Shown here: piece after piece, positions 1,765 to 27,252 of the stretch | Layout: the number at the start of each line of letters is the position of its first letter | Position numbering within the stretch: the stretch's first letter is position 1 | Origin: a virus | Direction: 5' to 3' (one strand) | Length of the DNA stretch: 47,932 nucleotides | Virus record (IMG/VR): IMGVR_UViG_3300046820_000833 | Span: 1-47,932 of that record | Notes under the pieces: model-generated | The model's input: the letters and a program-made list of their open reading frames with translations, nothing else | What the model was told of the DNA's origin: nothing | The model's database searches: none | Position numbers and translations under genes: made by a program

Positions 1765-4700
1765 TTATGCACTAGCACTAAATGTTGCTGGACCTGGTGA
1801 TGTATTACCATAGGCAATTGAACCTGGTCCTACGAACCAACCAAATGTTTGGCCTTCTCTTGATTTTATTCCAATACCATTTGAAGGTATTTGGTCTTTA
1901 ATTGTATCTGAATAAAAATCGGTTCTACCTCCAACCCAAGCTGCTGAATTTTGAATCAAAGCTGGGTCTTTAAGTGCGTTAATAGTGTTATCTATCGCTG
2001 TTGTTGCTTGTTCTAAAGTATAACTTTTTGACTTTTGTACGGCTTTAATTGCCGTATTTTTAGAGTTTATAGCGTTAAACTCCGCTACAGCTCTTTCAAC
2101 TGGTTCGTATTGGTTTTTGGCCACAATCAATGCTTTAATACTGTCTCCGTTGTATTTTTTAGAAGCCAACCTATTATATATTGATTGAGCAACGTCACAT
2201 CTACCTTGTGCTGTACCGTTTTCCATTGAACAGATAGCAACCAAGGCCCAATAATCAGCTGCACCACCTTCAATAACAGTACCACCGTCCATATTTGCAT
2301 AATCACTAGCTTTTACTGTTAAGTAATCACAACCTGTGTAAACAGCCTCTTTGTTGTCTTTACCTTTAGGGTTTTTAACAAAGCTTTTGATTTTAGACTC
2401 TTTAATTTCACTAACTGGGTTATCACTAGCTGAGTTATTACCCAATGCTGGGATTGGTCTTTTTCTTAACATACATATTGCTGATTTTCCGTGATATTCC
2501 CAATGCCAGTGTTCTTCACCAGCTTTTTTACCTACTTTTTCACCGTTGTTAGCCCAATAAGGTTGTACGTAACCATATTCATATGAATGTTGGTATAACC
2601 ATTGTAAGGCTGGGTTTGTTTTAAAGCTGAAATATTCTGCCTTACTACCTGTTTCATTAGTATTAGGGAATATTTTACCAGCTTTATCAAACATTTGTAA
2701 ATCGACAGCAATACCCCATCCGTGTGGTGAGTTGTATGTGTTTACTCTGAACAAAGATGTAACATAAGCATATACATTAGTACCAGCAATTACTTTAAAT
2801 CCATTTTCACTCATCCATTTTGCCCAATCTTTTAACATTTCCTCTAAAGGTTTGGCAGCTTCAGATAATAATCTTCTATCTGGATTCAATACAAAGCTAA
2901 TTCCAGGGATATCACCAATATTAGCCATTGCAATGTTACCGTTTGGTGATTCGATATTACTATTCAAACTTCCGTTTTCAATAAGTGTTTTAACGATAGG
3001 TGCGTAACTACCACTCTTAAGTGCTGAACCACCACCTTTGGCTTGTGATGTATCTAACGTATCTAATAAATCCATATAAACATCCATCGCTTCAACCAAT
3101 GGTGTTTTACTATATTTAATCCTAACACCCGTAAAATTTGTTGACATGGTGTTAGGTTTGATTGAATGTTTTACACGGGTAACCATATAGGCACCATGGA
3201 ACATAGGTATATTATCTAACTGAAAGTACATCATTGGTTGAATCATGGCGTTACCCATCATTTCGACCTGTGCGGTATAACTTCTTAACGAATATACGTT
3301 ATATAAGTTTTGACCAGCTAAACTTCTGTTAGTTTCGGAGCCTTTTTGTGATATATCATCAATGATTTGTAACGATTCTTCAGTTTCTGTAAATTCACTT
3401 TGGTCTAATACAATGTCTTTGAATACATTTTGATTCTGTTGACTATATTTAACTGTGAAAACACCAACTGGGTCTTCATAGAATTGTCCATTAATTGCCT
3501 CACTATTTTTCATAAAATCTTCTGGTACATTACCAACAAGACTATTGTTAATACATCTAAGGTCAAAACTATCATTAGGGTAATCAGCATTTGCGATTGC
3601 TAAGTGTTTTGATTTTTCACCAACATACACACAAACAAATGATGGCCCACATGAACCTTCAGCCACAGCTTTTTCGTAACTATCATATGGTTTAAAAATA
3701 GATTTTAACTCTTCATCATCGTGGAAGTTAACAAATGTTGGTAAGGCTATGAAATCGAATTTATTATCATTCAATAAGGTAGAAACAGAGTCGTAAAGAC
3801 ATGTGTTTTGATTTTCTACCAAATAATTATTAATCGGTAATGGGTTAATGTATAATAAATCACCAATATCTTCAAACGACCTACTAACAAATCTAAAAGT
3901 ATCGATAAATCTAGGTGTTAAGTTACCATATTTCTCAGCTAAACCTTTATCTGTCGAATTTCGTTTGTTACCGCATTGGAACATTAATTTATCTGGGTCT
4001 GTTGCACCAGCTAACCACTTATCGTGTATGTTTTTACAGTGTTTATATAATAATAATTTAATTGTGTCTTCATTTGCTGTACCAAAAAGTTCATTTAATA
4101 TTTGATTGTTAACTTCTCTTTCACTAAATTCATCACCAACTGCTTTAAGTTTTTCCGTTAAACCTTTAAAATATGTATCAAAAGCAGTTTTACTACATGA
4201 TATTTCTTCACGAGCATTTTCTACAGGTTCATCATTAACATACTCACTACCCCATATATTCCAACCAGTGTTTACAATCACAACTTCTTCTTTCATTGCA
4301 TTGATAAGAGTCTGTTGTGCGATGTTGTCTTTATAGGTTCCAGCCATTTCTAAGAATAAATAATCCTCATGATATTCTTGGTGGTCCCACGTTACCGTAC
4401 AATCACTAATATACAAAGGTGATATAATTACATAACTTTTACCATCTTTACCATTTTGGAATAATGAGTTAGCAAAAACCCAATTTGGCGTATAAAAATC
4501 ATAACAATTAGAACTAGCAATTGCAGCATTTCTAACTGTATCAAAAAAAACATTAAACTGTGTTGAGTTTCCTTTGAAGATTTCCATTTGTTCTTTTATT
4601 GTCTCCCATTTAGAATATTCGCCATCACCATTAACAAATTCAAAGAACATTCTTTTAAATTCTTTCTTAACTTGTATTGGTAATCTCCATAAAATATCGT

Positions 4701-12933: not shown

Positions 12934-15582
12934 TTATTGACCTTTATTTTTACCACCAGCTTTTTGTTTTTCTAACTCAGAAGTAATAACTCTTGTAATT
13001 TCACGTTTGAATTCACCATTCTTCATCAAGTCAACACTCGCTCCAGGATTTCCTGGACTTTGTACTGTAATAGAACCATTGATTGTCATTTCACCAAATG
13101 TGTGGTGAACATTGCTACTAGAATTTTGAGTTGCTTTATCAATAGCACCACCTTTTTTCATCGCTAATAAGTCGTCTTTATTATCAATTGGTGTTATTTT
13201 ACCGCCTTGTATAACACCTCTACCTTCAGAGAAGTCACTACCAAAATAACCACCAGCCAAAGCACCTAACGGGCCACCTAAAGCACCACCAATAGCACTA
13301 CCAACCATTCCAAATGTAGCATCATGAACTGGACTAGAAAATAAACCATCGTGAAGTCCTTTTTTGGCCGAACCACCAAACAACGCATCACCACCAATAT
13401 CACCAACTTTATCACCAGCTAAACCACCGATAATACCACCTAATAAACCACCAATAGCTGTACCAACACCAGGAAAAATCATAGTACCAATAGCAGCACC
13501 ACCAGCAGCACCACCCCACGCTCCTAATCCAGAAGTCGTAGCCCTTGTCGCTGTTCTACCAACATTTTCACCAGTATCCATTCCAGCTTCACTATTTGAG
13601 GTGTATTCATCATAACCAGATAGTCCAGCTGAAAGCAAACCAGCACCAGCACCACCCCAACCCTTGGCAAACTTACCAATTTTTGAAGCACTTCTAAGTC
13701 TTCCGAATTTACCTTTACCAAACATTTTACTAAATCTACCACCTTTCTTACCATTACCAAGCATATCGGTAATATCACCACCATCACCACCACCACCAGC
13801 ACTAGCAACACTATTAAAACCTAAACCTAATTGAATACCATTACCGAACCATTTTGCTCTTTCCCAAAAGAAACCAATTACCTTACCGATAGTAGGTGCC
13901 GCTTTAGCGAATAGATAAAGACCAGCGGTTAACTTTGGCCACTCAATCATAAATCCAGCTATTGAGCTAACCCATTCACCAACCATCGTTGCAAATTTTT
14001 CTATTTTTTCACCCCAACCACCTTTCATTGTAAACTTATCACTTAACCCTTGTAATTTAGGTATTAAGTTTTTGTTCATAGTTTCAACCAATGGTAATAA
14101 GAACACCTTCAACTGATTAATTAAATATGTAATTTGCTCATCAAATGTAGACGCTTGTTTCGCTCTTTCTTCCATTGTAGCAGTTTCAGCCATTTGAGCT
14201 TTCAAGATTTGTTTATCTTGCTCGTTCATCTGCTTAAGTAGTTTAGGTTGACCGTTAATCATGATACTAGCCTCACCATTTTTATTCAACACAGATTTGT
14301 TTGTGATAAATTCTTTTAGCTCTTCAGCATCTTTTCCACCACCAAGACTAAAGTTAAGTTGTGATTTAATTTTTGTATATTTTGCAGCGTTTTTACCAGC
14401 TGTAACCAAATCATCATAAGCAACACCTGTTTGTTCCGCAATGATTCTCAATTTATGCATTTCCATAGCACCTAAATCAAACTCACCAGTTTTAGAATTA
14501 AATTTAGCTGAAGCAGCAGCTGCATTACCCAACTCTTCAGTTAATCCAGCCATATCGTTACGAGCCATATACATCAAATGGAACGGGTCAGCCATTTTAG
14601 CCCATTCACCACCCATTACTTGTAATTGTGCAGACATATCAACAGCACCTTCAACACTAAAAAGTTTATCAGCCATACCAGCCGCAAAATCCATACTAAC
14701 ACCTAATTTAGAAACAAGTCCAGCCATTTTAGCCAATCCTTTAACACCGTCCTTAAAATTATAACGGTTAAGCATTTTAATGTTGCTTTGAATGTTCTTA
14801 ACAACCTTCGTTGCATTTAACCCCATTTTATGGGTGTCGTTCATGGTCTGTTCAATGAATTGACCAGTTCTTTCAGCTGATAAACCTTGGTTTTCAAACT
14901 CGGCAGCCATTTGAGCAGCACCTTCAGCACCTAACCCAGTAGCAGCAGCCATTTGACCCAAGTAAGTTAAACCTTGTTGACTCATCTCAACCGTTCTACC
15001 TAACTGCTCACTATATGTTGATTGTAATACTGATAATTCTTTGATACCAATACCAATCATATTGGTTTGAAGTGCGGCACCTTTTATTGTAGCTCTAAAA
15101 CCTTCAGTACCCTTAGAAAGAATACCCATAGACAAAGCAGATTGTTTCATGGATTTATCCAATTCAAACAATCCTAACCCTTTAATTTTACCGTAAGCCG
15201 ATTGTATTAATCCAGGTAAACCAACAAACGCCTTACCAAGACCTTTAGCCGCCTCACCCATAAGTTTAGCACCAGCCAAAGACTTTTTATTAACAGAAGC
15301 CAAAGCACCTTGTAATGCTTTACCTTGTTTTTCCATCTCAGCTGTTTGCTCTTTTAAAATCTTAAGTTTGATTTCAGCGGCAACCTTTTCATCACCAGTT
15401 AAGCTAGCAATTTCTCTTTCGATTTGCAGCTCTATTTGTTTGTTCTTATTAATAGTTTTTTGGATTGTTTTAAGGTCTTCAACACCTTTCATATAATCCT
15501 CAATACTACGACTAACCTCTTGTTGTAGTCTAGCTTGTTCTTTTAATAATTCCGTTAATTCTCTTTGTTCTTTTAAGGTCAT
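12934..15582 (-). CDS. Tail tape measure protein
   Basis: An 882-residue protein with the usual tape-measure build: a charged coiled-coil N-terminus (about 1-100), a long alanine-rich helical body with repeated MAAEF/AGLVSKLG-like heptads, a hydrophobic stretch around 540-580 (IAGFMIEWPKLTAGLYLFAK), and a glycine-zipper segment at about 690-760 (GGLLGGIIGGLAGDKVGDIG). Such proteins fill the tail tube and set its length; at about 0.15 nm per residue this would give a tail near 130 nm. It starts 6 nt after the 492-aa gene and lies downstream of the tail chaperone pair, the standard order tube-chaperones-tape measure-baseplate. The glycine zipper probably inserts in the host membrane on DNA ejection (inference). 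Confidence 0.85.
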   Translation of the reverse strand: MTLKEQRELTELLKEQARLQQEVSRSIEDYMKGVEDLKTIQKTINKNKQIELQIEREIASLTGDEKVAAEIKLKILKEQTAEMEKQGKALQGALASVNKKSLAGAKLMGEAAKGLGKAFVGLPGLIQSAYGKIKGLGLFELDKSMKQSALSMGILSKGTEGFRATIKGAALQTNMIGIGIKELSVLQSTYSEQLGRTVEMSQQGLTYLGQMAAATGLGAEGAAQMAAEFENQGLSAERTGQFIEQTMNDTHKMGLNATKVVKNIQSNIKMLNRYNFKDGVKGLAKMAGLVSKLGVSMDFAAGMADKLFSVEGAVDMSAQLQVMGGEWAKMADPFHLMYMARNDMAGLTEELGNAAAASAKFNSKTGEFDLGAMEMHKLRIIAEQTGVAYDDLVTAGKNAAKYTKIKSQLNFSLGGGKDAEELKEFITNKSVLNKNGEASIMINGQPKLLKQMNEQDKQILKAQMAETATMEERAKQASTFDEQITYLINQLKVFLLPLVETMNKNLIPKLQGLSDKFTMKGGWGEKIEKFATMVGEWVSSIAGFMIEWPKLTAGLYLFAKAAPTIGKVIGFFWERAKWFGNGIQLGLGFNSVASAGGGGDGGDITDMLGNGKKGGRFSKMFGKGKFGRLRSASKIGKFAKGWGGAGAGLLSAGLSGYDEYTSNSEAGMDTGENVGRTATRATTSGLGAWGGAAGGAAIGTMIFPGVGTAIGGLLGGIIGGLAGDKVGDIGGDALFGGSAKKGLHDGLFSSPVHDATFGMVGSAIGGALGGPLGALAGGYFGSDFSEGRGVIQGGKITPIDNKDDLLAMKKGGAIDKATQNSSSNVHHTFGEMTINGSITVQSPGNPGASVDLMKNGEFKREITRVITSELEKQKAGGKNKGQ

Positions 15583-19861: not shown

Positions 19862-20350
19862 TTAGAATAATAAGATAGCTCTATCGAATCTAAGTGTCGC
19901 AGTAATTTCAGCGATACCGTCATCATCCATAGATAAATCACCGAATCCAACGTTTGTTAACATAGTCCCATCAAGTAACCATTTTTCGATAACAACACCC
20001 GTTGGGTCAAGCATTTCAAGTTCAACTGGACGTTTGTAACCAGCCGCATAACCTTGACGACCTGTGATTGATTCAGAGTGAAGACGAACCCACTCCATAA
20101 TTGCTTGAGTAGCAGACGGACCGATTGGGTCACGGAATGTTACATCAATAGCTTCCCACGTAAATCTACCGATTACCCATGTAGATGTGTTAAGGAATGG
20201 AATTTCAACCTCATTTTGTGTGATTGAAGGTCTAGAAGCAGATGCTAACCACCATTGTTGGATACCAAGGTCTGCTGGGAATGTAATTAACCAACGATTC
20301 TTTTTCTTAGGCTCGTAAGGTAGGGGCATTTTCATCAATAAATCAGCCAT
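19862..20350 (-). CDS. Tail tube protein (gp19-like)
   Basis: A 162-residue protein, the usual size of T4 gp19-type tail tube subunits. It starts MADLLMKMPLPYEPKKKNRW and has the beta-rich pattern of tube proteins: FPADLGIQQWWLASASRPSI, an IPFLNTSTWVIGRFTWEAID strand pair, DVTFRDPIG, a helix with IMEWVRLHSESITG, and a C-terminal LSMDDDGIAEITATLRFDRA strand pair. The subunits stack as hexamers inside the contractile sheath around the tape measure. It lies downstream of the sheath gene, as in T4 (18-19), though separated by two small genes. Two or three late elements sit upstream, in keeping with high late expression. Confidence 0.85.
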   Translation of the reverse strand: MADLLMKMPLPYEPKKKNRWLITFPADLGIQQWWLASASRPSITQNEVEIPFLNTSTWVIGRFTWEAIDVTFRDPIGPSATQAIMEWVRLHSESITGRQGYAAGYKRPVELEMLDPTGVVIEKWLLDGTMLTNVGFGDLSMDDDGIAEITATLRFDRAILLF

Positions 20351-21275: not shown

Positions 21276-24131
21276 TTAGATGTTGTCGAAAGACGCACCA
21301 GTGTTCATAATTACGAATTCTAATTGGATGAACTCTAAAGCTCTGGTCGGTTTCAAGAAGATTTGACCAGTCAATTGGTTTCTGTCGATATCCTCTGGGT
21401 CGTTTGAAAGAACCACACGGAAGTCTGTTAAACCTCTTTCACTTCTGATGTTATCCAAGATTGGGTTCACAAGAGCTAAGAATTGGTTTCTTACCACGTT
21501 ATCGTTTTGTTCGAACAACAATCTGATAGCAACAGCAGAAATAAGTTTTCTTGCTTGTAATAACAATCTTCTAACGTTGATTCTGTTAAGAGCAGATTCT
21601 TTAACTTGAAGAGTTTTGTTACCCCAAATTTTGATACCGTCAGATGTGAAAGTAGCGATTGGGTTAATTCTGTTTTCGTAAAGAACATCTCTTTCAGAAA
21701 GAGTAAGTTTTTTTCTAGCTTGGATTGCATCAACATCACCACGTTGGATACCAGCAACTGCGAACCATGGGAAAGCAATGTTGTCAGTAAGTGCAATGTT
21801 TCTTACAACGTCTCTAGTTGGTGGCATGAAAATGTAAACGTTGTTTTCAGTATCGTTTACTTGAATCCAAGGCCAGTAAGTACAAGAGTAGTTACTATCA
21901 TACATTCCATCTAAAGAGTCTGTGATATCCTCAACTGTCATTACATCACCAGCACCATCAGTATCTGGAGTTGTCATGATATACAATGAGTCAGCTCTAT
22001 CAGTTTCAACCATATCGATTGTAGCTTCAATCAAGTTAGAGTTATCCAAGTTATCAATACCAGGAGTTGCAAATACGTTGATATTAACAGCTTCTGGGTT
22101 TTTGAATGTCCAAATAGCTTCTAAGTAAGCATAGTAATCAGAGTTGATTCCTAAGTCACCGTTAGTAAGCGTTCTGTTGGTAAATGCACCAGAATTTAAA
22201 CCAGCTTGTCCGTAAGTTCCATTGATGATGTATCTGTCCATATTACTTCTTCTAGTTCTATAAACATCCCATCCATCAAAACCACCAAATGGTGCAAATG
22301 TAAATTTACGAGCGTAAATTTTTTCGTATGGTCCGTTAACTAAACCAGCGTCAGTTCTAAATTGCCAGTCACCTGTATCGAACAAGAAGATTGGACTATA
22401 AGTACCACCTGTGTTATTGATTACGATAGTAACGTTGTCAATTGTCGCAGCACTAGCATCGATATCCATGTGGAAACCATTAGTCATACCAGTCCATAAA
22501 TTCGGGTCAGTAGTTTGAGGAACACCTTTGTAATCAAAGAAGTCAGAATCAATACCTACTGTCTCAGAAAGACCTAAGTAGAATTTACGCTTGTTTTCAA
22601 ACGCACTATATTCAGTTTTGTATGTTAATTTAGGGTCAACAACTGTTGGGTTGTTTAATTGGTAATCACGAATTGGGTAACCCATGAAACCAGCTGGGAA
22701 TGCATCGTTAGTATCAGATGTATCGTCCATTTCAATAAGAACATAAGAAGATTTAGAAGGGTACAATCCATCAAGAGTACCAATTCTTCTTGCAATGTAA
22801 TTATTTGATGTTGGGTCCATAGTACAACGACTGAATGATTCCAATACCGTTGGTTGAGCATCAGTATCGTAATAAGCTCTAATAACTACGTCAAACTCTT
22901 TTGTATCTGGTTTAATGTTTCTAATAGACATTTTGAATTGCTCATTAGCTGCATTACCATCAGAAATAGTCCAGAATCTGAACAATCTTAATAATTTCGT
23001 ACCACGTAACTCAGATACCACATAAGGTGTAACAGCTGGGCTGTATTCTTGTTGGTAATCTCTAAATTCAACACCATAGTTAGTTACAACTTGTTTTACA
23101 CCTCTAATTTTATCGGCAGTGTTTAATGATTCAAACATTTTGTTATAGAATTCTTCAACGAACAATGGAGTATTACCATTTTGAACGCTTCTTCCTAATA
23201 CTCTAGGTAAGTAGTTTTTCTTAGTCTTATCCAAAGACATCAAGTTAGCAAAAGCACCTTGAGTTGTAGACACACCAGTTAAAGAGAAATCGCCTAATGG
23301 GTCAGAAACAGCACCAGTGATATTTGGGTCAAATACAACACCAGTCGCACCAGTCACTTCAAATGAAGGTAATTGAGTGTCGATGTTAATACCACCTCTA
23401 GAACGTAATAAAGCAACTAATTTGTTTTCTACGTCAGCGTATCCTGTACCAGAATATGTGATACTTACACCACTAGTAGTACCAGTAATGAAAGCTCCAG
23501 ATGGGTCAGCACCTTTTGCGTCAACATAAAGATTAAATTCTACACCATCAAAAACATTACCTGTTTTTGTATAGAAAGGACCAACGTTAGCAGTGTTACC
23601 AACAGAAGCGTATCCTAAGAAAGATAAACTACCGATTAAGGTACCATCATTTATAAGAGTTTGAATTAAAGGTTCTGGTGAAACCAAAGTCACCATAGTT
23701 CCAGCAGATGTTGCTGTAAATGAAATTATAGCATCTGTAGTACCACCAGTATAAGTTGTACCACCGTTAACTACTTTTGTTGCTGGGTCTAAAGCCGCAT
23801 CTAATGTGATACCCCATGATAAACCAGCATCATATCCAGAAAAACCTAATACTCTTGTTACGAATAATTGGTTAGATTGTGATAAATAAGATTTTGCAAT
23901 GTAAGGTAGCTCATATTGTGGAGCTCCGTTGTCTTTAATCTTCGTAGCGTTAAGACCACCGAAGAAAGACTGGAATTCGCCATAGTTACCAATGAAAATT
24001 GGTTGGAAAGCTGGACCGATTGTAGTCTCACCAACTAAACCAAGTGTAGTAACACCAACTTGACGTGTAATAAAAGTTAAGTCTTTTTCTGATGTATATA
24101 CCCCAGGACTTACGAATACTTTTGTTGACAT
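21276..24131 (-). CDS. Contractile tail sheath protein (gp18-like)
   Basis: A 951-residue protein with the sheath N-terminus VFVSPGVYTSEKDLTFITRQ and the conserved C-terminal domain: GIKIWGNKTLQVKESALNRI, NVRRLLLQARKLISAVAIRL, FEQNDNVVRNQFLALVNPIL, and a closing segment ending in ALEFIQLEFVIMNTGASFDN. The C-terminal helix and strand mediate links between sheath rings in this family. It is about 290 residues longer than T4 gp18; the extra sequence is in the middle (about 110-700), rich in Thr/Gly/Asp and probably surface-exposed decoration domains. It has a late element 49 nt upstream of the ATG and its own strong terminator, so it forms a one-gene unit suited to high expression. Confidence 0.92.
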   Translation of the reverse strand: MSTKVFVSPGVYTSEKDLTFITRQVGVTTLGLVGETTIGPAFQPIFIGNYGEFQSFFGGLNATKIKDNGAPQYELPYIAKSYLSQSNQLFVTRVLGFSGYDAGLSWGITLDAALDPATKVVNGGTTYTGGTTDAIISFTATSAGTMVTLVSPEPLIQTLINDGTLIGSLSFLGYASVGNTANVGPFYTKTGNVFDGVEFNLYVDAKGADPSGAFITGTTSGVSITYSGTGYADVENKLVALLRSRGGINIDTQLPSFEVTGATGVVFDPNITGAVSDPLGDFSLTGVSTTQGAFANLMSLDKTKKNYLPRVLGRSVQNGNTPLFVEEFYNKMFESLNTADKIRGVKQVVTNYGVEFRDYQQEYSPAVTPYVVSELRGTKLLRLFRFWTISDGNAANEQFKMSIRNIKPDTKEFDVVIRAYYDTDAQPTVLESFSRCTMDPTSNNYIARRIGTLDGLYPSKSSYVLIEMDDTSDTNDAFPAGFMGYPIRDYQLNNPTVVDPKLTYKTEYSAFENKRKFYLGLSETVGIDSDFFDYKGVPQTTDPNLWTGMTNGFHMDIDASAATIDNVTIVINNTGGTYSPIFLFDTGDWQFRTDAGLVNGPYEKIYARKFTFAPFGGFDGWDVYRTRRSNMDRYIINGTYGQAGLNSGAFTNRTLTNGDLGINSDYYAYLEAIWTFKNPEAVNINVFATPGIDNLDNSNLIEATIDMVETDRADSLYIMTTPDTDGAGDVMTVEDITDSLDGMYDSNYSCTYWPWIQVNDTENNVYIFMPPTRDVVRNIALTDNIAFPWFAVAGIQRGDVDAIQARKKLTLSERDVLYENRINPIATFTSDGIKIWGNKTLQVKESALNRINVRRLLLQARKLISAVAIRLLFEQNDNVVRNQFLALVNPILDNIRSERGLTDFRVVLSNDPEDIDRNQLTGQIFLKPTRALEFIQLEFVIMNTGASFDNI

Positions 24132-24190: not shown

Positions 24191-24249
24191 CGGTTTTTTT
24201 CAAAAGTAAGACACATTAAAAAGATATATTCGTTTTAGTGTGTTTTTTA

Positions 24250-24268
24250 TCATACTTTTGTCATACTT
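24250..24268 (+). promoter_or_regulatory. Promoter/operator of the RHH-like gene
   Basis: TACTTTTG (24253-24260) fits the host -7 element, but there is no clear TTG 20 nt upstream. TCATACTT occurs twice (24250-24257, 24261-24268), 11 bp apart, over the same site: about one helical turn, as expected for an operator bound by RHH dimers. Autoregulation is an inference. Confidence 0.45.
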
Positions 24269-24283
24269 ATAGTAAAAAACATC

Positions 24284-24433
24284 ATGAAAAGGGATAAAAA
24301 CTTGAAAATAACACCAACAACTCACGAGATATTAAAAAAGTATTGTGAAGAAAATGGTTTGAAAATGTTTTCCTTTGTGGAAAAATTGATTAGAGAAAAG
24401 TGTTCTCCAAAGAAAGATTTATATGGGGAGTAA
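24284..24433 (+). CDS. Small RHH-like DNA-binding protein (49 aa), plus strand
   Basis: An ATG at 24284 opens 49 codons to TAA at 24433. The product MKRDKNLKITPTTHEILKKY, CEENGLKMFSFVEKLIREKC and a short tail has the ribbon-helix-helix outline: a basic beta strand (NLKITP), helix A (THEILKKYCEENG) and helix B (MFSFVEKLIREK). Such proteins are small dimeric repressors or antitoxins. A -7 element and a pair of TCATACTT direct repeats lie just upstream, and a hairpin with a T-run (24456-24492) follows, giving a complete tiny transcription unit opposite to the sheath gene and the structured RNA. I infer autoregulation or control of the neighbouring RNA or sheath. Confidence 0.6.
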   Translation: MKRDKNLKITPTTHEILKKYCEENGLKMFSFVEKLIREKCSPKKDLYGE

Positions 24434-24455
24434 GGATTGTCATTTAGACCAAGAA

Positions 24456-24492
24456 GACACCCCATTGAACTAGTTAGGGGTGTCTGGTTTTT
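24456..24492 (+). terminator. Terminator of the RHH-like gene (overlaps 3' hairpin of the structured RNA)
   Basis: Stem GACACCCC/GGGGTGTC (24456-24463 with 24477-24484, 13-nt loop), then TGGTTTTTATC on the plus strand, 22 nt after the RHH stop. On the minus strand the same stem is the last clear hairpin of the large RNA but is not followed by a T-run. Confidence 0.65.
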
Positions 24493-25200
24493 ATCGAAAA
24501 GAGTTCTAGAGTTCTTTTCGCTTAACCTCTCTTAATCCGAGAGGTAATAGTTTGAATTCATTCATCGCTCCAAATAAGCCAGTGATGCGGAGCATAATCT
24601 AGGCAAGCCCATCTTATACTACCTCACTGACTGAACCGAAGCTCAGCCAGCAAAGCTCATCTCATTATCGGGCCGAAGCCCTCCAACAAAACTAACCAAT
24701 TGAGCCGAAGCCCAATCAACAGATGTGCACTTATTAAGCCGAAGCCTAGATGGTTCGTGCACACCCCACACCACTGGTTCTCGTTCGCCATTCTCGAACT
24801 AAAACAATGCGACTACTTGAATCTAAATCGGTATAAAAGCTACTAGTGGATAGGTACCTTACTACCAAAACATGGGTATCCCATCCTACTTATCGACACT
24901 ACTTACCGATTATTTACTGACTATTACCTCAGTTCAGATTGAGTTTCGATAGGATTTAACTCATTATATTTAATCTCTTATACTAAACCCGAAGATTTAG
25001 TCAGTTAGATTAAATGGCTTGAGTTAAATCTTCTCTAGATACATTGTTGTCAATTTGGGTTTAACGACTCCCTCACGTTCGCCCGTCAAGCGAACCTCTT
25101 TAATCCTGTATCTTTAGTCATTCGAACAAGGAATGGTACTCCATCCCATTATGGCACATGTTAAATCACAGCCATGTCTCCTAACTAAGTTTCTCAATCC
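24456..25200 (-). ncRNA. Large structured non-coding RNA (about 740 nt, ornate-RNA type)
   Basis: This stretch has no credible gene, higher G+C than its surroundings and dense base pairing. On the minus strand it has five hairpins closed by C(UUCG)G: loops at 24990-24993, 24740-24743, 24706-24709, 24674-24677 and 24637-24640. One is a nested element with stems of 10 bp (25021-25030 with 24953-24962), 9 bp (25007-25015 with 24968-24976) and 8 bp. Four of these hairpins and a fifth (25130-25147) each contain a G-U pair that becomes an A-C mismatch on the plus strand, which fixes the strand. The loop of the last hairpin (24464-24476) is complementary to the 5' end (25180-25198). A host-type promoter lies at 25273-25303. 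Size, phage location and build recall GOLLD and ROOL RNAs, but I cannot assign a class. The 3' end is uncertain. Confidence 0.8.
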
Positions 25201-25219
25201 TATTTTATTTTTAATATTT

Positions 25220-26269
25220 TTAAGCGTTATCAGTTTTAGGTGCTGCTGCCGCTGCTTCTCTTCTTTTAGGAACAAAATTAATGTTCTCCAACTTACCTTT
25301 CAACACGATAAGGTTATCAGTTGCAGCTTTCAATGATTCGTAAACACCAACTCTATAAGGTGATAAATTAGCTAAACCTGTTTTTTGATAAGCTTTTACA
25401 AGGTTTAACAATTCATTATATAAATCCTCATCTCTAAAATAAGTTAGTATATTAGTTTCTTCTTTTGTAGCGAACAAAGCACCTAACGATTGTTTTTTCT
25501 TTAATTCAATTTGTTTTTGTAATGCTTTTACTTGGGTTTCCAAATAATTAACATTGTCAACAACATCATTTAACACTATTGGTAATTTACCATTGTTAAA
25601 ACTTCTTGCTATAAACCTATCAATAACAGATTGTGCGACAACATAGAAAGGTACATCAATATAACCACCAGCTTCGTACTCAGCTTCAGCTGTTGCTAAT
25701 TCTACTTGTCTTTCAGATAAACGATATTGTTGATAAGCTTGTTCGATTGCGTCATTTTCTGCTTGTTCAATAATCGCTAAGTCTTCTGGGCTACTTTGTT
25801 CTGGGTAATCAGCGTTATCTCTGTAATTATCTATAAAGTTTAAAAATTCTTGAGTCGTCTGATATTCTTCCATAGTCAAGTTTCTCTCTTCTGGCTCTTG
25901 AATACTAATACTAGTAGAATATTGGAATTCCTTACCAGTTCTATCTTCTATCATACTTACCACGTCATTAAACGGAGAGTTTGGTAAAAATGGGTATCTT
26001 TTACCGTTGATAATAACAGTCAAATCTAAGGTTACATCGTAATCATAACCTAATAAAGCATCAAACACTAAAGTTTGGTCTAATTTTTCTTTTGTTGTTT
26101 TACCTTTTTTCTCAAGTACTGTTCCATATTTATCACTCCAAACAAGAATATCATATTCTATTATGGCATCTTTTGTTTCTAACACACCTGTGTTATTTTT
26201 ACCGTCTTCTAATAAAAGTAATGACACTTTCTTAACGATTCCTTTTTTTATTGGTTCTTTTATTGGCAT
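25220..26269 (-). CDS. Virion-type hypothetical protein (349 aa) at the end of the fibre cluster
   Basis: A 349-residue protein. Residues about 1-120 are beta-rich (VSLLLLEDGKNNTGVLETKD, DVTLDLTVIINGKRYPFLPN); the rest is largely helical and charged, with probable coiled coils at about 145-200 (DLAIIEQAENDAIEQAYQQY) and 240-265 (VNYLETQVKALQKQIELKKK), ending in an Ala-rich tail. No family is recognised. It lies last in the fibre-gene series and has a late element 38 nt upstream of its ATG, so it is probably a structural or fibre-associated protein. The end of its coding region contains a perfect host-type promoter pointing into the structured RNA. Confidence 0.65.
   Translation of the reverse strand: MPIKEPIKKGIVKKVSLLLLEDGKNNTGVLETKDAIIEYDILVWSDKYGTVLEKKGKTTKEKLDQTLVFDALLGYDYDVTLDLTVIINGKRYPFLPNSPFNDVVSMIEDRTGKEFQYSTSISIQEPEERNLTMEEYQTTQEFLNFIDNYRDNADYPEQSSPEDLAIIEQAENDAIEQAYQQYRLSERQVELATAEAEYEAGGYIDVPFYVVAQSVIDRFIARSFNNGKLPIVLNDVVDNVNYLETQVKALQKQIELKKKQSLGALFATKEETNILTYFRDEDLYNELLNLVKAYQKTGLANLSPYRVGVYESLKAATDNLIVLKGKLENINFVPKRREAAAAAPKTDNA
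25273..25303 (-). promoter_or_regulatory. Host-type promoter inside the gene end, facing the structured RNA
   Basis: On the minus strand TTG (25303-25301), a 20-nt spacer and TAATTTTG (25280-25273). The predicted start near 25266 is about 65 nt upstream of the first paired segment of the RNA. Confidence 0.55.
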
Positions 26270-26307
26270 AGTTTTTTGTTTTTATTTTTTTTTATTTATT
26301 GTCTTTA

Positions 26308-26317
26308 TATAAATATA
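26308..26317 (-). promoter_or_regulatory. Putative late promoter element for the 349-aa gene
   Basis: Reads TATATTTATA on the minus strand, 38 nt before the ATG at 26269, between the stop of the 309-aa fibre gene and this gene. Confidence 0.5.
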
Positions 26318-26322
26318 TGGAT

Positions 26323-27252
26323 TTATTTAATTGATACAACCAATCCGTTTTTTATTGTAACAATTAACCCATCAATAGTTTTAAATGTTGCTGTTATACC
26401 CACAGAACCATCACTAGATAAATATCCGTCAGATTTAAGAACACCATGGATTATTGTTTTTTCTGTTTTTTCATTACCAATTGTTGTTGTATTCGAACCA
26501 TTTCCAATAGCGTCAACACCAATAACAATTTCATTTTTACTACTATCTTCTAAAGGTCTTGTATTGGCACCAATAAAAACAGAGCCAAATGATTGATTAT
26601 TGTTTTGACCTTTTTTTGTTACCTTACCAGCGTTCGAACCAACCGCAACATTATCAGTGCCTCTAGCCAATCCAGCCAAAGAGTGTCTACCGACAGCAGT
26701 ATTGTTAGCGGCTTCTCTACTAGTTGCTAACGAACCTTTACCAACACCAACATTTCCACTACTAATATTTTGATTAAGAGCGTTAAAACCAACCGCAACA
26801 TTATCAATACCCTTTTTATTTTTAATCAAGGTATTCTTACCAATTTTTATATTCTTATCATCATTAGCATCAATTGTATCAATAATTTGAGGTAATTGCT
26901 CAATGTTAGGTACTGCTGATTCTATTACTGTTTGTACTGTACTAACCATAGTACTACTAATAGGTTGACCTTCTGGTGTTACCAATTGCGTTGTTGGAAC
27001 TACAGGGTCTATATTGACTACATTTGTAACAGCTTGTGTATTGTTCTCGCCATTCAAATCGACAACATTAGGTAGTATAACATATAAAAGTTCTGTATCG
27101 GCACTAGTTTGCTCATCAGTTTGTACTACAGTACCACCATCTCTTAGATATTGAACATATTCCTCGTGAAGTGTTGTACCTTCAATCATAGGAATAGCAA
27201 CACCATTCTTAATGATTGTTCCGTTATTATTTATTCTATATAGTACTTCCAT
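26323..27252 (-). CDS. Tail fibre protein with YadA-head-like repeats (309 aa)
   Basis: A 309-residue protein. Residues about 130-270 carry repeats of the kind found in trimeric adhesin heads: GIDNVAVGFNAL, SGNVGVGKGSL, NNTAVGRHSLAGL, GTDNVAVGSNAG, FGSVFIGANT, NEIVIGVDAIG. Such repeats form a left-handed beta roll as a trimer, in keeping with a receptor-binding fibre. The end (GLIVTIKNGLVVSIK) looks like a short trimer-tip strand pair. The start codon overlaps the stop of the 1068-aa fibre gene (TAATG), so the two are translationally coupled and may assemble together. Fibre role is well supported; receptor unknown. Confidence 0.75.
   Translation of the reverse strand: MEVLYRINNNGTIIKNGVAIPMIEGTTLHEEYVQYLRDGGTVVQTDEQTSADTELLYVILPNVVDLNGENNTQAVTNVVNIDPVVPTTQLVTPEGQPISSTMVSTVQTVIESAVPNIEQLPQIIDTIDANDDKNIKIGKNTLIKNKKGIDNVAVGFNALNQNISSGNVGVGKGSLATSREAANNTAVGRHSLAGLARGTDNVAVGSNAGKVTKKGQNNNQSFGSVFIGANTRPLEDSSKNEIVIGVDAIGNGSNTTTIGNEKTEKTIIHGVLKSDGYLSSDGSVGITATFKTIDGLIVTIKNGLVVSIK

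Follow-up and report, generated by a model that had tools for sequence, protein, structure and literature searches.

What does an uncultured myovirus encode in several hundred nucleotides of its tail gene cluster that hold no credible gene? The question is raised by a 47.9-kb IMG/VR virus record, the whole of which (47,932 nt) is referred to here as the window. Its tail sheath gene lies at 21276-24131 on the minus strand (phrog_23, E 1.5e-57), and the window also encodes a tail tube (19862-20350), a tape measure (12934-15582), a family B DNA polymerase and a phage helicase. A preliminary description placed a large structured RNA between the fibre and sheath genes. The sheath gene does lie downstream, but the gene immediately upstream (25220-26269, minus strand) codes for a 349-aa protein of unknown function, and the fibre-like genes are found beyond it. 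To our knowledge, only a handful of RNAs this large and complex have been recognised, and what phages use them for remains open.

As delimited by fold z-scores and by its homologues in two other phages (L008 and L052), the element occupies 24440-25212 on the minus strand (~755-773 nt), with the 5′ strand of helix P0 starting at 25200 and the 3′ strand of helix P7 ending at 24446. No ORF of more than 44 codons was found on either strand of the RNA (25212 to 24440), in keeping with the ~740 nt without a credible gene first reported, except that the 3′ end lies further on, at ~24446-24440. For a 791-nt stretch of the minus strand the folding energy is −266 kcal/mol, where 20 shuffles average −199 (z −12.4), and a second set of 24 shuffles gave z −8.8. 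The plus strand is weaker in both sets (z −6.6 and −4.6), which supports the original assignment of the structure to the minus strand, and z was −3.3 to +1.0 in eleven 760-nt segments taken elsewhere on the contig. The G-U pairs noted earlier are real, the minus-strand fold holding 38 in all. All five of the C(UUCG)G-capped hairpins that had been proposed were recovered, at RNA positions 219, 469, 503, 535 and 572 of 25212 to 24440, each site capping a predicted hairpin, where composition alone predicts 0.1 sites. These caps are private to the window phage, L008 and L052 having no such site, and hence are not a defining feature of the RNA. We regard it as close to certain that a genuine structured RNA is specified by the minus strand, on the basis of three sequences, all metagenomic and one of them incomplete (L052), and without RNA data.

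Homologues and their distribution

Relatives were gathered by a sheath protein search of IMG/VR, which yielded 80 loci. BLASTN of the RNA against these loci gave clear matches in L008 and L052 only. The L008 element is 784 nt long (2907-3690) and matches at both ends, while the L052 match (1-495) represents the 3′ part, the contig beginning inside the element; each sits immediately 5′ of the sheath gene, the same genomic place as in the window. Sheath identity among the three RNA-carrying phages is 67-78%, whereas the closest sheath relatives (L002-L004, ~80% identical) lack the RNA, so that its presence is patchy with respect to sheath similarity. The remaining relatives with upstream sequence, these three included, have at most ~520 nt there, most of it a conserved stretch that carries a small repressor gene on the opposite strand. 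In the window this gene (24284-24433, plus strand) encodes a 49-aa Arc-like repressor (phrog_582, E 3e-4) and converges on the RNA; conservation of the stretch extends to most relatives, including those without the RNA. Longer gaps before the sheath gene in four loci (L019, L039, L033 and L026) were judged by eye to be short ORFs or gene ends and not the RNA.

When L004 (3390-3692) is set against the window (25220-27252), the 349-aa gene and the RNA are both missing from L004, and its fibre-tip gene is a 100-aa version, the first 70 aa of which are common to a 309-aa protein of the window. Judged from this comparison, the interval from fibre to sheath is a variable cassette. The sheath itself is unusually long (951 aa), with similarity to PHROG sheaths confined to the C-terminal part (from ~residue 660), and no close sheath was present in the annotated phage collection, the best matches being 28-31% identical and covering part of the protein.

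Wider searches for the RNA added no member. BLASTN against phages and plasmids gave no match, and pattern scans of IMG/VR (P5 loop, P5 junction and 5′ motif) recovered L008 and L052 as the only genuine members, L083 and L082 being the same contigs. The other IMG/VR pattern matches (L084, L086-L097) were unrelated chance matches, as was L085, the sole match of a genome scan. Two covariance models together with the pattern scans found no further family member. A hairpin in the first model, R1 (CACUUCU...AGGAGUG), was discarded, as its strand pairs with the distant 5′ strand of helix P4 in all three RNAs, and weak R1 matches in L022 and L101 fall in fibre or other coding frames and were attributed to chance.

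Domain architecture and compensatory change

The RNAs were aligned by sequence alone, over the 5′ part for the window and L008 and over the last 130 nt for all three. Read from these sequences, the RNA is a row of three closed domains, with P0, P4 and P7 as their closing helices, all on the minus strand. The 5′ domain (24936-25200) is conserved, as is the 3′ domain, and is closed by P0 (25200-25193 with 24943-24936). Within it lie P1 (25188-25183/25119-25114), which bears the hairpins P1a and P1b, P2 (25112-25107/25043-25038), which carries hairpin P2a (25095-25077), and the arm P3 (24953-25030). The stacked arm reported earlier is P3; it is present at 25030-24953 under a C(UUCG)G cap, but its stems are of 11, 9 and 8 bp and not 10, 9 and 8. 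Its expansion is private to the window, ~66 nt being absent from L008. Both P0 and P2a have been re-paired: in the window P0 joins GGAUUGAG to CUCAAUCU, and in L008 GGGUUGAG to CUCAACCC, with A-U in the former standing against G-C in the latter in columns aligned by sequence alone, and P2a is wholly re-sequenced yet paired (GUUCGC/GCGAAC in the window vs AUCUAC/GUGGAU in L008).

The middle domain (24541-24930) is variable and multi-branched, holds all but one of the five C(UUCG)G hairpins, and has arms that differ in number and sequence among the phages. It is closed by P4 (24930-24920 with 24551-24541), for which there are three different, perfectly paired sequences (GAGGUAAUAGU/ACUAUUACCUC, GAAGUGAUA/UAUCACUUC and GAAGUGUAAAU/AUUUACACUUC). 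In its 9-bp core four pairs are changed on both sides, with 100% of cells paired. The partner was chosen by looking everywhere upstream of the aligned 3′ strand for the best duplex, and 3, 0 and 1 of 300 shuffles did equally well in the three sequences; the pair count leans towards the helix because the alignment was made from the chosen strands. As far as the aligned strands can tell, P4 is kept by compensatory change while the arms that it encloses are rebuilt from phage to phage.

The 3′ domain (24446-24538) is conserved, and forms a tight three-way junction of P7 (24538-24530 with 24454-24446), P5 and P6. Its alignment was made without reference to structure, and 98.8% of the cells of its 29 pairs are paired, with six pairs changed on both sides; when the partners were slid out of register, 38-58% were paired and at most one double-sided change remained. 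P5 (24486-24527) is a 43-nt element, GGUUAAGCGAAAAGAACUCUAGAACUCUUUUCGAUAAAAACC, that is near-invariant in the three phages, with one A-A mismatch in L008. Its 10-nt loop, ACUCUAGAAC, is centred on the palindrome UCUAGA (24510-24505). In the hairpin P6 (24455-24485), both bases have been exchanged in five of nine pairs, the flanks and part of the loop remaining fixed. Permutation controls are coarse with three sequences. Absence of covariation in homologues had been named at the outset as grounds for refutation, and the test was passed in P4, P6, P7, P0 and P2a.

Comparison with known RNA families

ROOL and GOLLD RNAs are often encoded near tRNAs or within tRNA islands; ROOL assembles into an octameric nanocage, and GOLLD into a homo-oligomer through kissing loops and A-minor contacts. 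HEARO is linked to an IscB/IsrB-type protein, and the pRNA of phi29 is a phage RNA that self-associates by loop pairing. The suspicion that the present RNA belongs to no known class was borne out. A scan of 4227 Rfam families, at gathering and permissive thresholds, returned chance-level matches only for the window RNA and for L008 and L052. The GOLLD model (RF02032) gave nothing at E ≤ 10 in the window or in L008 and L052, and only sub-cutoff signals in control genomes, so that its sensitivity remains unshown. The ROOL model (RF03087) likewise gave nothing at E ≤ 10 and nothing in cmscan, and the OLE model (RF01071) no match; neither gave a signal in the control genomes, which leaves their sensitivity unshown as well. 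No match was found with the HEARO model (RF02033), for which the control genomes gave sub-cutoff signals only, or with the group II intron model RF01998. No nuclease is encoded among the neighbouring proteins, so the linkage expected of HEARO is not met, and no tRNA was found in the 48-kb window or in the L008 and L052 loci.

The element does meet the description of the large ornate structured RNAs of phages, in being hundreds of nucleotides long, non-coding and supported by covarying helices in homologues, and it appears to be a new family of this kind and not a member of GOLLD or ROOL. It resembles GOLLD as a phage RNA of several hundred nucleotides and unknown function, with a conserved 3′ region and a less conserved remainder, and its self-complementary loops recall the self-kissing loops described for GOLLD and ROOL, both large phage RNAs (PMC12286853). 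It differs from GOLLD in its closing helices and P5 element, in the absence of tRNA neighbours and in its place in a tail gene cluster. With ROOL it shares a phage origin, a similar length, many helices and a variable region (ROOL env-120 has 659 nt, many helices and a variable linker region; PMC12286853), but there is no model match, and the architecture and genomic place differ. OLE is a large RNA that dimerises through a symmetric palindromic kissing loop (PMC12286853), to which the palindromic loop here may be likened; again there is no model match, and OLE is found in a bacterial operon, unlike this RNA of a phage tail gene cluster. Although phi29 has been mentioned as a case of RNA homomers (PMC12286853), its pRNA is far smaller and the present phage has T4-like tail genes, and the analogy is functional only.

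Expression, proposed self-association and competing explanations

A late-promoter-like motif of the GATATTTATA / TATTTATAATAAA type precedes many late genes of the window; GATATTTATA followed by A-rich sequence is seen before many structural genes, e.g. at 24188-24176, 33932-33920, 21214-21202 and 19711-19699. The sheath gene has its own late-type motif (TATTTATAATAAA, 24188-24176), and the 349-aa gene upstream also carries one. At the 5′ end of the RNA there is no clear late promoter, only a poor version (TATTAAAAATAAA) that departs from the sheath motif at two positions, and P7 is not followed by a U-tract terminator. Lacking an independent promoter and such a terminator, the RNA may be processed from the fibre-operon transcript. 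Its separate domain boundaries, and the promoter motif that the sheath gene itself possesses, show that it is not the leader of the sheath mRNA.

Each of the two complete RNAs has exactly two copies of the palindrome UCUAGA (RNA positions 174 and 703 in the window, 176 and 713 in L008). The second copy (25034-25039) falls within the conserved AAUGUAUCUAGA, at the same place in L008, and might be what the P5 loop pairs with. That loop could hence bind either the P5 loop of a second molecule or the other UCUAGA copy, although the latter would be a competing pairing because that copy overlaps P2. By our own estimate, the chance of a 6-nt palindrome in a 10-nt loop is roughly 8%, and self-pairing of the P5 loop cannot be tested by covariation because the loop never varies. 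The P6 loop is also self-complementary, perfectly so in the window (AACUAGUU) and with one A-A mismatch in L008 and L052 (AACUAAGUU).

We consider it about an even call that this is a late, trans-acting RNA that associates with itself; expression and oligomerisation are inferred, there being no transcript data, and so is function. The RNA would be made late, either by read-through from fibre-operon promoters, with the transcript then processed, or from a weak promoter located at the 5′ end, and would act in trans as a free-standing folded molecule. Self-association would proceed through the UCUAGA of the P5 loop and the self-complementary P6 loop, as in GOLLD and ROOL; the contacts would be made by the near-invariant P5 element, and the variable arms would lie at the periphery. 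Any gain to the phage, the nature of which is not known, might then be placed at virion assembly or lysis. More tentatively still, the RNA could be a new phage class, an RNA-only homo-oligomer held by its palindromic P5 (and P6) loops, made alongside the tail proteins of a lytic-looking myovirus and of an origin independent of GOLLD and ROOL. If this is true, a T4-like tail cluster distant from tRNA islands encodes a class unrelated to the known ones, which would mean that large ornate RNAs arose in phages on more than one occasion. The compact conserved 3′ domain (~93 nt) is directly testable for self-association, protein binding and catalysis.

An invariant P5 loop and internal loop would be as compatible with the binding of a protein as with a kissing loop, and the RNA may instead be the scaffold of a ribonucleoprotein, bound at P5 by the 349-aa product or by a host protein. 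In a protein search, the only homologue of that product (55%) was in L008, where its gene adjoins the RNA too, so that among all loci examined the gene is found only beside the RNA. No RNA-binding domain is recognisable in it in Pfam or PHROGs, however, and an AlphaFold model was too poor to use and was set aside (mean pLDDT 42.5). The gene lies in the variable fibre-tip region, so its linkage to the RNA may reflect fibre biology, and L052, with its contig beginning inside the element, cannot contribute to that linkage. We think a scaffold unlikely, and give the same weight to an element acting in cis, either as a structured 3′ UTR of the fibre operon or as an antisense or terminating structure opposite the Arc-like repressor gene, which would stabilise or end transcripts. 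The RNA starts ~20 nt past the stop codon of the 349-aa gene without a strong promoter of its own, and leaves ~13 nt between its 3′ end and the convergent repressor gene, as such an element might; its length and its covariation across three domains go far beyond what a terminator or stabiliser needs, and in most relatives the same repressor gene and sheath occur without it.

The patchy presence described above, in relatives with 67-78% sheath identity and not in those with ~80%, would fit a mobile or catalytic RNA, resembling an intron or a guide RNA, that has degenerated or gone unrecognised. This we hold to be very improbable, as the RNA matches no group I intron, group II intron or HEARO model of Rfam, is intergenic and not within a gene, occupies the same site in all three phages and has no linked nuclease or reverse transcriptase gene. 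Slighter still is the case for chance structure in an untranslated remnant with no functional RNA. Only three sequences are available, and the L008 RNA folds just moderately better than its shuffles (z −1.9 and −2.9), but compensatory changes in P4, P6, P7 and P0 with the register preserved already contradict this explanation.

Two further features of the interval were noted. The RNAs of the window and L008 are nearly equal in length (773 and 784 nt) though arms have been gained or lost in different domains, and their UCUAGA copies are nearly equally spaced (529 and 537 nt), which may reflect chance or a constraint on size. Repeated TCATACTT / GTATGA motifs lie upstream of the Arc-like repressor gene (24225-24275), between that gene and the sheath promoter, and look like an operator by which the repressor would regulate itself.
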